Shown here in pieces: positions 4,697 through 9,786 of a DNA stretch of 64,000 bases. The first letter of the stretch is position 1. Each line of letters starts with the position of its first letter. The position numbers and the translations under genes are program-made. A model generated the notes under the pieces. The model made no database searches and was not told the DNA's origin. It saw nothing but the letters and a program-made list of their open reading frames with translations. This DNA comes from Pseudomonas leptonychotis (lineage in GTDB: Bacteria > Pseudomonadota > Gammaproteobacteria > Pseudomonadales > Pseudomonadaceae), in NCBI RefSeq assembly GCF_004920405.1, contig NZ_RFLV01000001.1, forward strand, positions 1,240,001 to 1,304,000, in the 5' to 3' direction.

Positions 4697-5356
4697 TCAA
4701 ATCACCTGATCGAGCGGCACATGCAGCTTGGCGTATAACGCCTCCACTGCCTCACGTGCTGGCGGCGCGATGTAGCCGCCCTCCAGCGCGAGCACTTGGT
4801 AAACACCACGGCGGAGCATTTCTTCACTGAGATCGCCTGGGTTGCCACGCGTGGTGCAGAGAAAACGCACCCAAGACGTCATGATGATCCAGCTATTGAG
4901 GGTCAACGCTTCGATTTGCGCGGCGTCCATCAACAGAATGCCGGCTTCGACAAAGCCCTGATAAATGCTCTGCGCCTGCACCAGGCAACGCTGGGCAAAT
5001 AGCCGGTAGCGCTCGGCAAGCTCGGCGTCGCTGTCCAATAGGTGTTCAAGGTCGCGGTGCAGGAAGCGGTAGTGCCACATGGCTGCCAGCAGTGCTTCGA
5101 GGTAGAAGGTCTTATCCTGCACCGTCAGGGCGCGACCCTCGGGGCGTCGCAGAAAGGTGCTTACCTGGCCTTCATAGAGGGCGAACAGCTCGGCGATGAT
5201 CGCCTGCTTGTTGCGAAAGTGGTAGTACAGGTTGCCCGGTGAAATCCCAAGGTGGGCGGCGATATGGTTGGTGGTGACGTTGCGCTCACCCTGGGCATTA
5301 AACAGCCCCAGGCTCTCCTGAATAATGCGTTCACGGGTTTTCAGTGGGGCTGACAT
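4697..5356 (-). CDS. laoR: TetR family repressor of the long-chain alcohol oxidation genes
   Basis: 219 residues from the ATG at 5356 (the open frame runs further up, but only from a TTG without support). The N-terminal TetR helix-turn-helix is clear at about residues 28-48 (NHIAAHLGISPGNLYYHFRNK), followed by a long helical ligand domain. It is divergent from an aldehyde dehydrogenase gene whose upstream region carries a perfect 18-bp palindrome. The gene set TetR / aldehyde dehydrogenase / small Tat protein / GMC oxidoreductase is the one described as LaoR-C-B-A in P. aeruginosa (PA0367-PA0364). The name is transferred by synteny and family, and the effector is not visible from sequence. 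Confidence 0.82.
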   Translation of the reverse strand: MSAPLKTRERIIQESLGLFNAQGERNVTTNHIAAHLGISPGNLYYHFRNKQAIIAELFALYEGQVSTFLRRPEGRALTVQDKTFYLEALLAAMWHYRFLHRDLEHLLDSDAELAERYRLFAQRCLVQAQSIYQGFVEAGILLMDAAQIEALTLNSWIIMTSWVRFLCTTRGNPGDLSEEMLRRGVYQVLALEGGYIAPPAREAVEALYAKLHVPLDQVI

Positions 5357-5427
5357 AACGACTCGTTCTCGATTCAAAAGCCCGGCAAAGGTACAGGCAG
5401 AAACGCTTAACGTGCTAGCCGAGCATG

Positions 5428-5457
5428 GCCCAACAACGCGCTAACGTTTCGTTGGGC
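5428..5457. repeat. REP-like inverted repeat in the laoR-laoC intergenic region
   Basis: GCCCAAC and GTTGGGC form arms around ACGCGCTAACGTTT, and the following GCTGCGCTCG is the tail often seen with GTTGGGCT-type intergenic repeats in Pseudomonas. It lies 30 bases upstream of the promoter for laoC and about 70 bases upstream of laoR. Confidence 0.6.
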
Positions 5458-5487
5458 TGCGCTCGTCGGCTGACTGCGTCATGCTAT

Positions 5488-5516
5488 TTGACAGATTAGA
5501 GCAATTGCTCTAAAAA
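5488..5516 (+). promoter_or_regulatory. Sigma-70-type promoter with embedded 18-bp operator
   Basis: A perfect -35 TTGACA (5488-5493), a 17-base spacer and a -10 of TAAAAA (5511-5516) face laoC. A perfect palindrome, TTAGAGCAATTGCTCTAA (5496-5513), fills the spacer and overlaps the -10. An 18-bp palindrome next to a divergent TetR gene is the expected repressor site. A repressor bound there would exclude RNA polymerase. The site is 140 bases from laoR, so feedback on laoR is possible but less direct. Confidence 0.82.
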
Positions 5517-5588
5517 TCCAGCACACCTTTTCTGCAGTGCGCGAGCTTGTTTGACGCACTGCATGCTGGAATGCCGAGGAGCAAGACC

Positions 5589-7031
5589 ATGGTCGCCGAT
5601 GTCACGTATCTGGAACAAAGCCTGCAAAACAGCCAACAACAGCTCAGCCAGTTGGAGAGCAGCTTTGCCCGGCAGCGCCAGGCATTCAAGGCCAACCCCA
5701 TGCCCTCGGCCGAACAGCGCATCCAGTGGCTGAAAGCGCTCGCGCAACTGCTCAGCGATTCGCGCGAGCCGCTGGTCCAGGCGATTTCCCAGGACTTTAG
5801 TAACCGCAGCGCGGATGAAACCTTGCTTGCCGAGCTGATGCCCAGCCTGCACGGCATTCATTACGCAACCAAACGCATCAAAAAGTGGATGAAGCCGTCG
5901 CGGCGCAGCGTTGGCATGCAATTTATGCCCGCAGCCGCCAAGGTGATCTACCAGCCGCTGGGCGTGGTCGGGGTGATCGTGCCGTGGAACTACCCACTGT
6001 TTCTCGCCATTGGTCCGCTGGTAGGCGCGCTGTCTGCCGGCAACCGGGTCATGATTAAGATGAGTGAGTCGACCCCGGCCAGCTCGCTGCTGATCAAGGA
6101 CCTGCTGGCCAAGGTCTTCCCCGAGGACCTGGTAAGTGTTGTGTTGGGCGAGGCAGAAGTCGGCATGGCTTTCTCCAAGTTGCCGTTCGATCACCTGCTG
6201 TTCACCGGTGCCACCAGCATCGGCAAGCACGTGATGCGCGCTGCGGCCGAGAACCTCACCCCGGTAACCCTGGAGCTGGGCGGCAAATCACCCGCCATCG
6301 TTTCCGCCGACGTGCCCTTAACCGATGCGGCTGAACGCATCGCGTTTGGCAAGACCATGAACGCCGGCCAGACCTGCGTCGCCCCAGATTACGTGCTGGT
6401 GCCGAAAGACCGCGTCGACGGTTTTGTCGAGGCCTACCGCAATGCCGTACAGGGTTTCTACCCAACGCTTGCGGATAACCCCGACTACACCGCCATCATC
6501 AACGAGCGCCAGCAGCAACGCCTCAACGGTTATTTGCAGGACGCCGAAAGCAAGGGCGCGACTGTCATCCCGCTATACCCCGCTGCCCAGGGCCGCCGCA
6601 TGCCGTATGCCGTACTGCTGAATGTAACGGACGAGATGAAGGTGATGCAGGACGAGATTTTCGGTCCGCTGCTGCCGATCATCCCCTACGACACCCTGGA
6701 AAACGCCTTCGCCTTTATCAACGAGCGCGACCGGCCGCTGGCGCTGTACTACTTCGGTTACGACAAAAGCGAGCAACAGCGCGTGCTGGTCGAAACCCAT
6801 TCTGGTGGCGTGTGCATTAACGACACCCTGCTGCACGTGGCCCAGGATGACATGCCGTTCGGCGGCATTGGCCCCTCCGGCATGGGCCACTACCACGGCC
6901 ATGAAGGCTTCCTGACCTTCAGCAAGGCCAAGGGGGTGTTTATTAAACAGCGCTTCAATGCCGCCAAAATGATTTACCCGCCTTATGGCAAGGCGATCCA
7001 GAAACTGGTCTACAAATTTTTCGTTCGCTAA
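5589..7031 (+). CDS. laoC: Aldehyde dehydrogenase (coniferyl-aldehyde-dehydrogenase-like), LaoC
   Basis: 480 residues from the ATG at 5589, chosen because GAGGAG sits 7 bases upstream; a longer frame from 5547 lacks this. NAD(P)-dependent oxidation of a fatty aldehyde to the acid is the expected reaction. Seen: VIVPWNYPLFLAIGP cofactor element, FTGATSIGKHV, general base Glu229 in TLELGGKSP, catalytic Cys263 in NAGQTCVAP (34 residues apart, as is normal), and C-terminal GGIGPSGMGHYHGHEGF. The ending IYPPYGKAIQKLVYKFFVR resembles the membrane-peripheral tail of class 3-like enzymes. First gene of the lao operon behind the palindromic operator. Automatic annotation would likely call it coniferyl aldehyde dehydrogenase; the lao context argues for long-chain aldehydes. 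Confidence 0.9.
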   Translation: MVADVTYLEQSLQNSQQQLSQLESSFARQRQAFKANPMPSAEQRIQWLKALAQLLSDSREPLVQAISQDFSNRSADETLLAELMPSLHGIHYATKRIKKWMKPSRRSVGMQFMPAAAKVIYQPLGVVGVIVPWNYPLFLAIGPLVGALSAGNRVMIKMSESTPASSLLIKDLLAKVFPEDLVSVVLGEAEVGMAFSKLPFDHLLFTGATSIGKHVMRAAAENLTPVTLELGGKSPAIVSADVPLTDAAERIAFGKTMNAGQTCVAPDYVLVPKDRVDGFVEAYRNAVQGFYPTLADNPDYTAIINERQQQRLNGYLQDAESKGATVIPLYPAAQGRRMPYAVLLNVTDEMKVMQDEIFGPLLPIIPYDTLENAFAFINERDRPLALYYFGYDKSEQQRVLVETHSGGVCINDTLLHVAQDDMPFGGIGPSGMGHYHGHEGFLTFSKAKGVFIKQRFNAAKMIYPPYGKAIQKLVYKFFVR

Positions 7032-7091: not shown

Positions 7092-7637
7092 ATGCACGAC
7101 AGCACTCTCGCAGCACCCGGCCTGTCACGGCGCGGCCTGCTTAAAATCGGCCTGATGGGCTCGGCCTTGCTTGCCACGGCCGGGCTTACCGCCAGCCTCA
7201 GCGGTTGCTCGGCCAGCACGCCAAAAGCCGGTTTTGCGGTGATCCGCGAATCCGACCTGGCCTTCCTGAACGCCTTGATTCCGGTGATGCTGGCCGGTGC
7301 GGTGACGCCCGAGAAAATGCCGCAAGCGGTGGCGGGCACCCTCACCAACCTCGATTACAGCCTTAATCACGTCTCGCCAGAACTGCTAAAGCTGACCGTG
7401 CAACTGTTCGACGTGCTGGCCATGCCGATCACCCGAGGCCCGCTGACCGGGGTCTGGGGCAGCTGGGAAACCGCAGCGCCCGCCGACGTGCAGGCCTTTC
7501 TCGAACGCTGGCAGAACAGCTCGATCGGTTTGCTGAAAATGGGCCACGCCTCTTTGCTCCAGCTGGTGATGATGAGCTGGTACAGCCGCACCGAATCCTG
7601 GGCGCACTGCGGCTACCCCGGCCCGCCTACAGTCTGA
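7092..7637 (+). CDS. laoB: Tat-signal small protein of the lao operon, LaoB
   Basis: 181 residues. The N-terminus has a twin-arginine signal, SRRGLLK (Arg13-Arg14), followed by a hydrophobic stretch that ends in LSGC, so Cys39 sits in a plausible lipobox; the product may be a Tat-exported lipoprotein. The mature region carries IRESDLAFLNALIPVML and looks like the small subunits that accompany GMC-type dehydrogenases (gluconate dehydrogenase subunit 3-like), though the similarity is only by impression. LaoB is reported as needed for long-chain alcohol oxidation with unclear function. Export of LaoB suggests that the GMC partner could be co-exported or membrane bound. Confidence 0.75.
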   Translation: MHDSTLAAPGLSRRGLLKIGLMGSALLATAGLTASLSGCSASTPKAGFAVIRESDLAFLNALIPVMLAGAVTPEKMPQAVAGTLTNLDYSLNHVSPELLKLTVQLFDVLAMPITRGPLTGVWGSWETAAPADVQAFLERWQNSSIGLLKMGHASLLQLVMMSWYSRTESWAHCGYPGPPTV

Positions 7638-7790: not shown

Positions 7791-9383
7791 ATGCCTGTAC
7801 CCGATAGTTTTAAAGAGGGCCTGGCCCGTGGCTGGAAAACCTATAACGGCTCGCAGCTGGACGGCGACTTAACGCTTGAAGCGGACGTGGCCATCGTCGG
7901 TAGCGGCGCAGGGGGCGGCACCACCGCAGAAATTCTCAGCGCGGCGGGTTACAAGGTGCTGCTGATTGAAGAAGGCCCGCTAAAGACCAGCAGCGACTTT
8001 AAAATGCTCGAAGACCAGGCCTACGCCAGCCTCTACCAGGAAGGCATCGGTCGCATGAGCAAAGATGGCGCAATCACCATCATGCAGGGTCGGGCCGTCG
8101 GCGGCACCACGCTGATCAACTGGACCTCCAGCTTTCGCACACCCACGCCGACCTTGGAACACTGGGCCAAGGAGCATGGCGTTCAAGGCCATAGCGCCGA
8201 AGAAATGGCCCCCTGGTTTGCGCAGATGGAACAGCGCCTGGGCGTTGCCCCCTGGGCCGTCCCGCCCAACGCCAACAACGAAGTGATACGCACGGGCTGC
8301 GAAAAGCTCGGTTACGAGTGGCAAGTCATTCCACGCAACGTGCGCGGCTGCTGGAACCTCGGCTATTGCGGCATGGGCTGCCCGACCAACGCCAAGCAAT
8401 CCATGCTGGTCACCACCATTCCGGCAACCCTGGAAAAAGGCGGTGAGTTGCTGTATCTGGCACGTGCCGAGCGTCTGTTGCTCGACGGTGACAAAGTCAC
8501 TGGCATTGAATGTCTGGGCATGGACGAACGCAGCGTCGCGCCCAACGGCCGCAAAATAACGGTCAAGGCCAAGCATTATGTGCTCTCAGGTGGTGGCATA
8601 AACACGCCGGGCATTCTTCTGCGCTCAGGCGCTCCCGACCCGCATAAACGCACTGGCAAGCGCACTTACCTGCATTTGGTGAATTTCTCTGCCGCCCTCT
8701 TCGAGCAGGTGATCAACCCGTTCTACGGGGCGCCACAATCGATCTACTCCGACCACTTCCAGTGGGATGACGGCGCGGCAGGGCGTCTTTCTTACAAGCT
8801 GGAAGTACCCCCTCTACAACCGGCGCTGACCGCCACCCTGCTCGGCCGCTTCGGCATCGATAACGCCATGCGCATGGAGCAACTGCCCAACACCAACGTC
8901 ATGCTGGCGCTGCTGCGCGACGGTTTCCACCCGGACAGCGCCGAAGGCAAAGTCGAGCTGCGCGGCGATGGCAGCCCGGTCCTTGATTACCAGATGACCG
9001 ACTACACCTGGGACGGCGTACGCCGCGCCTTTCATACCATGGCAGAGGTTCAATTCGCCGCCGGTGCCAAGGCCGTACTGCCCTTGCACACCGACGCCGG
9101 CTACGTGAAGACGCTGAGTGAAGCCAAGCGCCTGATCGACAACCTGAGCCTGGAGCTGTACCGCACCCGCCTGGGCAGCGCCCACGTGATGGGCGGTTGC
9201 GCCATGGGTGAAGACCCGCAACTGGCCGTGACCGACAGTCTTGGCCGCCACCATCAGTTGGCAAACCTGTCGATTCATGACGGCTCGCTGTTCCCCACCA
9301 GTATCGGCGCCAACCCGCAGCTGTCGATCTATGGCCTGACGGCCAAGCTGGCCAGCCAATTGGCTGAGCGGCTGCACGCCTAG
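7791..9383 (+). CDS. laoA: GMC-family alcohol oxidoreductase, LaoA
   Basis: 530 residues. FAD-dependent glucose-methanol-choline family: the dinucleotide motif VAIVGSGAGGGTTAEIL is at residues 33-49, a GRAVGGTTLINW element lies near 102-113, the active-site His region is GSAHVMGGCAMGED (about 463-476), and the C-terminal flavin motif is SIGANPQLSIYG. The cysteine-rich NLGYCGMGCPTNAKQSM is typical of the long-chain-alcohol/choline branch. In the lao scheme this enzyme converts a long-chain alcohol (for example 1-dodecanol) to the aldehyde used by LaoC. It is separated from laoB by a 153-base repeat-containing spacer, so expression may differ from laoCB. Confidence 0.88.
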   Translation: MPVPDSFKEGLARGWKTYNGSQLDGDLTLEADVAIVGSGAGGGTTAEILSAAGYKVLLIEEGPLKTSSDFKMLEDQAYASLYQEGIGRMSKDGAITIMQGRAVGGTTLINWTSSFRTPTPTLEHWAKEHGVQGHSAEEMAPWFAQMEQRLGVAPWAVPPNANNEVIRTGCEKLGYEWQVIPRNVRGCWNLGYCGMGCPTNAKQSMLVTTIPATLEKGGELLYLARAERLLLDGDKVTGIECLGMDERSVAPNGRKITVKAKHYVLSGGGINTPGILLRSGAPDPHKRTGKRTYLHLVNFSAALFEQVINPFYGAPQSIYSDHFQWDDGAAGRLSYKLEVPPLQPALTATLLGRFGIDNAMRMEQLPNTNVMLALLRDGFHPDSAEGKVELRGDGSPVLDYQMTDYTWDGVRRAFHTMAEVQFAAGAKAVLPLHTDAGYVKTLSEAKRLIDNLSLELYRTRLGSAHVMGGCAMGEDPQLAVTDSLGRHHQLANLSIHDGSLFPTSIGANPQLSIYGLTAKLASQLAERLHA

Positions 9384-9402: not shown

Positions 9403-9786
9403 ATGCTGCAGAAAGTGGTTTCCGTGCTGCTGATCATCGCCGGCATCATTCACTTGCTGCCGCTCAGCGGCGTCTTAGGAGCTGAACGCCTGGCGCAACT
9501 CTACGGCCTGACCTTCCAGGAGCCCAACCTGCTTTTACTGATGCGCAGTCGCGCCGTGCTGTTTGGCCTGCTCGGCGCCTTGCTGGTCTACGCTGCGTTC
9601 CGCCCGGCACTGCAGCCCATCGCCCTGATCGGCGGACTGCTTAGCGTGCTGAGCTTTCTTTACTTGGCCTGGAGTACTCCCGGCTACAACGAGGCGCTAC
9701 GCCGGGTTGTAATCGCCGACTGGGTGGCGCTGGCCTGCCTGGTGATCGCTGCCTTGCTGGTTTTTCTGGCCCGCAACAGAACCTGA
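9403..9786 (+). CDS. Small integral membrane protein (four predicted helices)
   Basis: 127 residues with about four hydrophobic segments, starting VVSVLLIIAGIIHLLPLSGV and ending VALACLVIAALLVFLARN. GAERLAQLYGL after the first helix and the overall layout recall DUF4345-like or phosphopantetheine-adenylyltransferase-neighbour membrane proteins. I do not recognise a function. Spacing of 19 bases after laoA, with AGGAGCC before the ATG, makes it probably the last gene of the lao transcript. I do not recall it as a named lao component. Confidence 0.75.
   Translation: MLQKVVSVLLIIAGIIHLLPLSGVLGAERLAQLYGLTFQEPNLLLLMRSRAVLFGLLGALLVYAAFRPALQPIALIGGLLSVLSFLYLAWSTPGYNEALRRVVIADWVALACLVIAALLVFLARNRT

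Follow-up and report, generated by a model that had tools for sequence, protein, structure and literature searches.

A predicted LaoR operator in the laoC promoter of Pseudomonas leptonychotis and its conservation in relatives

The LaoABCR system of Pseudomonas aeruginosa PAO1, encoded by PA0364-PA0367, was reportedly described by Panasia and Philipp in 2018 and by Panasia et al. in 2019, the latter study being said to have located the site bound by purified LaoR and to have identified dodecanoyl-CoA as the releasing ligand; in P. aeruginosa LaoR itself is reportedly the repressor, with a mapped site. Passages of two further papers describe the system as an alcohol dehydrogenase, LaoA together with LaoB, an aldehyde dehydrogenase, LaoC, and the regulator LaoR (PMC10045523, PMC7318663). 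A section of another places the P. aeruginosa SDS pathway under both positive and negative regulation, with acyl-CoA esters as inducers, and its reference list includes a 2021 paper the title of which refers to LaoA-LaoB as a Tat-dependent dehydrogenase (PMC10779009).

The 64-kb stretch of P. leptonychotis DNA that was analysed, hereafter the window, contains laoC, laoB and laoA in the same direction with a laoR-type gene alongside, the gene set of LaoABCR; these names were transferred by family and gene order, rather than by direct comparison with the PAO1 sequences. The features of the locus are as follows.

4697..5356, minus strand: laoR, TetR-family regulator, 219 aa (Pfam TetR_N and PF13972)
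5488..5493, plus strand: -35 hexamer TTGACA of the laoC promoter (6/6 match; conserved in relatives)
5496..5513, no strand: predicted LaoR operator, perfect palindrome TTAGAGCAATTGCTCTAA (sequence, uniqueness, conservation)
5511..5517, plus strand: -10 region TAAAAAT (promoter scan; A-rich block conserved in relatives)
5589..7031, plus strand: laoC, aldehyde dehydrogenase, 480 aa (PF00171)
7092..7637, plus strand: laoB, 181 aa, twin-arginine-like N-terminus SRRGLLKIG, by eye (no Pfam match)
7791..9383, plus strand: laoA, GMC oxidoreductase, 530 aa (PF00732, PF05199)

The divergent gene adjacent to laoC had been taken for a TetR regulator matching LaoR, and both its domains and its place beside this gene set agree; it has an alternative in-frame TTG start at 5377. 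With GMC domains in LaoA and the twin-arginine-like segment of LaoB seen by eye, export of the enzyme is at most predicted. Between laoA and coaD lies a hydrophobic 127 aa open reading frame (9403-9786 of the window) with no Pfam match, which may belong to the operon as its fourth gene.

The palindrome and the laoC promoter

The palindrome at 5496..5513 is exact over 18 bp, as two arms of nine with no gap, and is the sole perfect palindrome of at least 18 bp within the window. Allowing up to three mismatches, the 18-mer matches once in the window, where shuffles predict 0.02 matches, and at one place in the 4.39-Mb genome, where the reversed control matches nowhere. Twenty 64-kb sequences simulated with a Markov-1 model held a mean of 0.3 perfect palindromes of at least 18 bp, and 7 of 2000 simulated intergenic regions of 232 bp contained one. 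The palindrome per se is therefore only mildly unusual and constitutes weak evidence; it is conservation that is decisive. The original prediction of a perfect palindrome is borne out, and its suggestion that the motif might be common to other genes of the same genome is not, with no further copy found genome-wide at up to three mismatches. It is genes of relatives, unlike the other genes of this genome, that do carry the motif.

The -35 element was correctly predicted as perfect, TTGACA matching the consensus at every position, while the remaining promoter geometry requires some qualification. Two readings of the -10 fit: TAAAAA at 5511-5516, giving the 17-base spacer originally proposed, or AAAAAT at 5512-5517 with an 18-base spacer, the latter being favoured by the promoter scan (10/12 matches, with 0.2 such sites expected). 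The sequence CTAATAAT, read at the -10 place in several distant relatives, suits the 18-base spacer slightly better, and TAAAAA with a 17-base spacer is also possible. The -10, first described as AT-rich, is A-rich and conserved but bears a poor likeness to TATAAT. The palindrome does lie between the -35 and the -10 and fills most of the spacer, but was not placed there exactly as proposed, its final two to three bases running into the -10. The locus has the arrangement of a TetR-type operator on a sigma-70 promoter: a palindrome that overlaps the -35/-10 region near the regulator gene and is conserved with it.

The intergenic region between laoR and laoC spans 232 bp, from the ATG at 5356 on the minus strand to that at 5589, the best start for laoC, 75 bp past the palindrome. 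The laoC leader has inverted repeats at 5533-5563 and 5517-5570. A leader RNA hairpin at 5517-5570 was considered and rejected, since 22 aligned leaders gave no consensus structure and Rfam returned nothing up to E 0.1.

Conservation of the site and its co-occurrence with LaoR

The original prediction staked itself on the palindrome being conserved upstream of laoC in relatives, and this check did not refute it. The operator block is present at all 80 of the nearest LaoR loci, which are the best 80 of 354 and hence close relatives, with LaoR 76-95% identical. Across the 81 intergenic regions formed by these and the window, TTGAC, the spacing and the TAGAG and CTCTA arms are invariant, the final A of TTGACA is found in 80, and the palindrome varies only at its outermost bases and its centre. 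About nine more bases on the laoC side of the block reach approximately 1 bit or above, beyond which values are mostly below 0.5 bit; a weaker conserved stretch, of up to 1.2 bits, is situated 28-43 bp upstream of TTGACA.

A strict 25-mer was detected in 83 of 249 Pseudomonas genomes (reversed control, 0/249) and in none of the 18 that lack a LaoR match at E<=1e-50. Forty of the 148 LaoR-bearing Pseudomonas without the strict form were then sampled, non-randomly, from the better-scoring hits listed: 38 have a variant site upstream of laoR, matching 10-12 of 12 arm bases, and 30 of the 40 score 11 or more, where shuffles reached a score of 10 in 19/2000 cases and 11 never. Two sampled genomes lack a site upstream of laoR: G177, in which laoR adjoins coaD and laoC, laoB and laoA were not found in an 8-kb stretch, and G127, for which 400 bp were viewed.

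TTGAC precedes the site in 26 of the 38 sampled genomes retaining it and is absent at that spacing in the other 12; placement in the spacer was accordingly rejected as a universal rule. In seven loci with an operator lacking TTGAC (L254, L264-L267, L269 and L270), the block ATCTTACGG is found farther upstream in five. By eye, the site in the seven ends approximately 24-29 bp short of the probable laoC start codon and no clear promoter is common to them, the sites probably overlapping the -10 or the transcription start. That the palindrome is retained where TTGAC has been lost bears on the proposal that it forms a hairpin in the transcript or arose by chance within a conserved promoter, for which might be cited its perfection and the further inverted repeats nearby in the leader. 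However, a loopless palindrome makes a poor hairpin, this one lies upstream of any start fixed by the -10, and Rfam gives no match; such an origin is exceedingly improbable.

The association with LaoR extends across the order. Of 194 genomes, 46 have a LaoR orthologue at E<=1e-50, a threshold falling within a gap between matches of 3.5e-51 and 9.9e-39, where the paralogues begin. The pattern YTAGAGYANNNRCTCTAR is found in all 46 genomes with an orthologue versus 4 of 148 without one (Fisher 2.4e-40), and in none of the 35 having only a paralogue (E 1e-50 to 1e-25). The pattern was written after viewing the DNA upstream of laoR in 31 of the 46 genomes, 28 of them with the site and three without. 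The 15 previously unviewed genomes are a fairer test of the co-occurrence, and the pattern is present in 15/15 versus 4/148 (Fisher 6.5e-18); by coordinates, 13 of these sites lie no more than 200 bp from laoR, the remaining two (G345, G347) standing before laoC. An earlier search with only the Pseudomonas 18-mer had also landed, by coordinates, beside LaoR genes in G059, G064, G065 and G092. The reversed control pattern matches 31/194 genomes, therefore single sites can be chance.

These data also bear upon whether the palindrome might serve a different regulator, either a paralogue of LaoR or an activator, with the co-occurrence of LaoR being indirect. The helix-turn-helix residues 38-52 match the window's LaoR at a mean of 92% across 127 orthologue sequences, which include some genomes twice, compared with 70% for the ligand domain; 20 paralogues of around 35% identity share the LaoR segment SPGNLYYHF or a near-identical one, and could in principle bind. 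However, the regions upstream of all 20 have arm scores of at most 9/12, the level of shuffles, and the site is absent from all 35 genomes having only a paralogue. The paralogues have I or V in place of LaoR N30 and, in 18/20, D in place of H31, positions which may set specificity. An activator site between the -35 and -10 would be unusual, although the P. aeruginosa SDS pathway is reported, in the section mentioned above, to be under positive as well as negative control. Action by a different regulator consequently seems improbable, and the tracking of LaoR orthologues across the order, with the position of the site tracking laoC, supports the original interpretation as a LaoR operator.

Separated loci and sites before other genes

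Four genomes from a single genus (G313, G345, G373 and G419) have laoR and laoC at separate places; in every one the site precedes laoC (L233-L236) and is absent upstream of laoR (L176, L185, L187 and L302). In G082, laoBA are next to laoR, with laoC on another contig, and each has its own site. Five Pseudomonas genomes (L259-L263, from G020, G121, G217, G219 and G270) have a 398 aa gene, an MFS protein by Pfam in L259, intervening between laoR and laoC, and in all five the site is at laoC; four of these retain the operator at laoC although neither laoB nor laoA gave a hit within 13 kb. Since the palindrome accompanies laoC where the two genes part, its pattern of retention argues that it is a target site of laoC, beyond mere conserved intergenic DNA or synteny.

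The same loci speak to the idea that the site serves chiefly for autoregulation of laoR. Its position between the two divergent genes, with the laoR ATG 139 bp away on the opposite strand, would allow this, but the site stays at laoC and is missing at laoR in the genus with separated genes, and a scan of 5300-5620 found no sigma-70-like promoter directed towards laoR. Autoregulation is thus very improbable, and was rejected as the main role because the site accompanies laoC.

Extra sites were sought by pattern in 149 Pseudomonas genomes. A MAPEG-family gene has a site 41-55 bp before it in seven genomes (G013, G014, G027, G028, G054, G153 and G183), the proteins sharing 70-79% identity with the G014 one. 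In six of these (all except G014) a site is found 5-42 bp before the first ATG of an alpha/beta hydrolase gene, the products of which are 64-75% identical to that of G028; Pfam was run on one MAPEG protein and two hydrolases. The hydrolase query had only two hits in the window's genome, at 26-29% identity; the G014 MAPEG protein had none there, in a search made without a positive control, which shows little. Outside Pseudomonas, seven genomes (G077, G308, G340, G368, G415, G436 and G092; Pfam on three) have a site followed by a gene for a protein of approximately 180 aa and then an iron alcohol dehydrogenase. Another iron alcohol dehydrogenase is preceded by a site in three genomes (G064, G297 and G397; Pfam on two), and in G059 and G329 a site is flanked by the genes for a GMC oxidoreductase and an AraC-type regulator. 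The protein of approximately 180 aa, which occupies this position in two families (L250, L252, L253, L256, L291, L292 and L241) and had no Pfam match in either of two examples, may be a partner of the iron alcohol dehydrogenase.

Sixteen further sites away from laoR (L238, L239, L240, L242, L243, L245, L247, L255 and L293-L300), from the subset of such places fetched, have no neighbour of the gene kinds named above, with three inside long reading frames; among them are those found in the four LaoR-less genomes G076, G396, G400 and G423, and all are treated as chance or unknown. On balance we lean towards LaoR repressing a portable fatty-alcohol regulon, in which the same operator would stand before differing genes across lineages while accompanying laoC, the targets being two kinds of iron alcohol dehydrogenase, a GMC oxidoreductase, MAPEG proteins and alpha/beta hydrolases. 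If so, the operator could be used to find unrecognised genes for long-chain alcohols.

Proposed regulation and comparison with known systems

The sequence data make it very probable that the palindrome is a LaoR operator in the laoC promoter, acting in repression by blocking RNA polymerase. A LaoR dimer would sit on the palindrome with one helix-turn-helix per TTAGAG half-site, lying between and partly over the -35 and -10 and so keeping RNA polymerase off laoCBA. Oxidation and activation of a long-chain alcohol would supply a pathway acyl-CoA to bind LaoR, which would then leave the DNA and allow laoCBA to be expressed. We infer from the arrangement that it is this LaoR that binds, that the sign is repression and that a single dimer is involved. 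Counting against this explanation, part of a report on the SDS-degrading Pseudomonas strain AP3_22 describes its lao homologues as not differentially expressed (PMC6107682).

For many Pseudomonas and their relatives, the site provides a defined predicted operator of genes for fatty-alcohol oxidation, of potential use in predicting alcohol dehydrogenases for long-chain alcohols, as in the breakdown of alkanes, detergents and plastics, and as a promoter part sensing long-chain alcohol substrates. It is also a specific point to check for the G-to-A change between PP_5119 and PP_5120 that, according to a portion of one study, arose in 3/5 evolved P. putida KT2440 variants after growth on C16/C20 alcohols (PMC13291428).

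A text search of the literature did not find the exact 18-mer, which says little. The solved chain closest by sequence to the window's LaoR is the TetR-family structure 3nnr (219 bits, residues 5-213), and the closest named LaoR loci are from Pseudomonas, such as P. anguilliseptica at 94%. An excerpt of a ChIP-seq study gives the PA0367 motif as an example from a cluster with motifs more likely to be inverted repeats (eLife 2026, PMC13086498); by that description the palindrome would be of the same inverted-repeat type. Relative to LaoABCR of PAO1, the window represents another Pseudomonas species with the same gene set, matched by family and order. The lao system of P. aeruginosa and this type of switch are already known, and what is added here is a conservation map, the evidence of the separated genes and a wider set of targets, amounting to a modestly new regulon.
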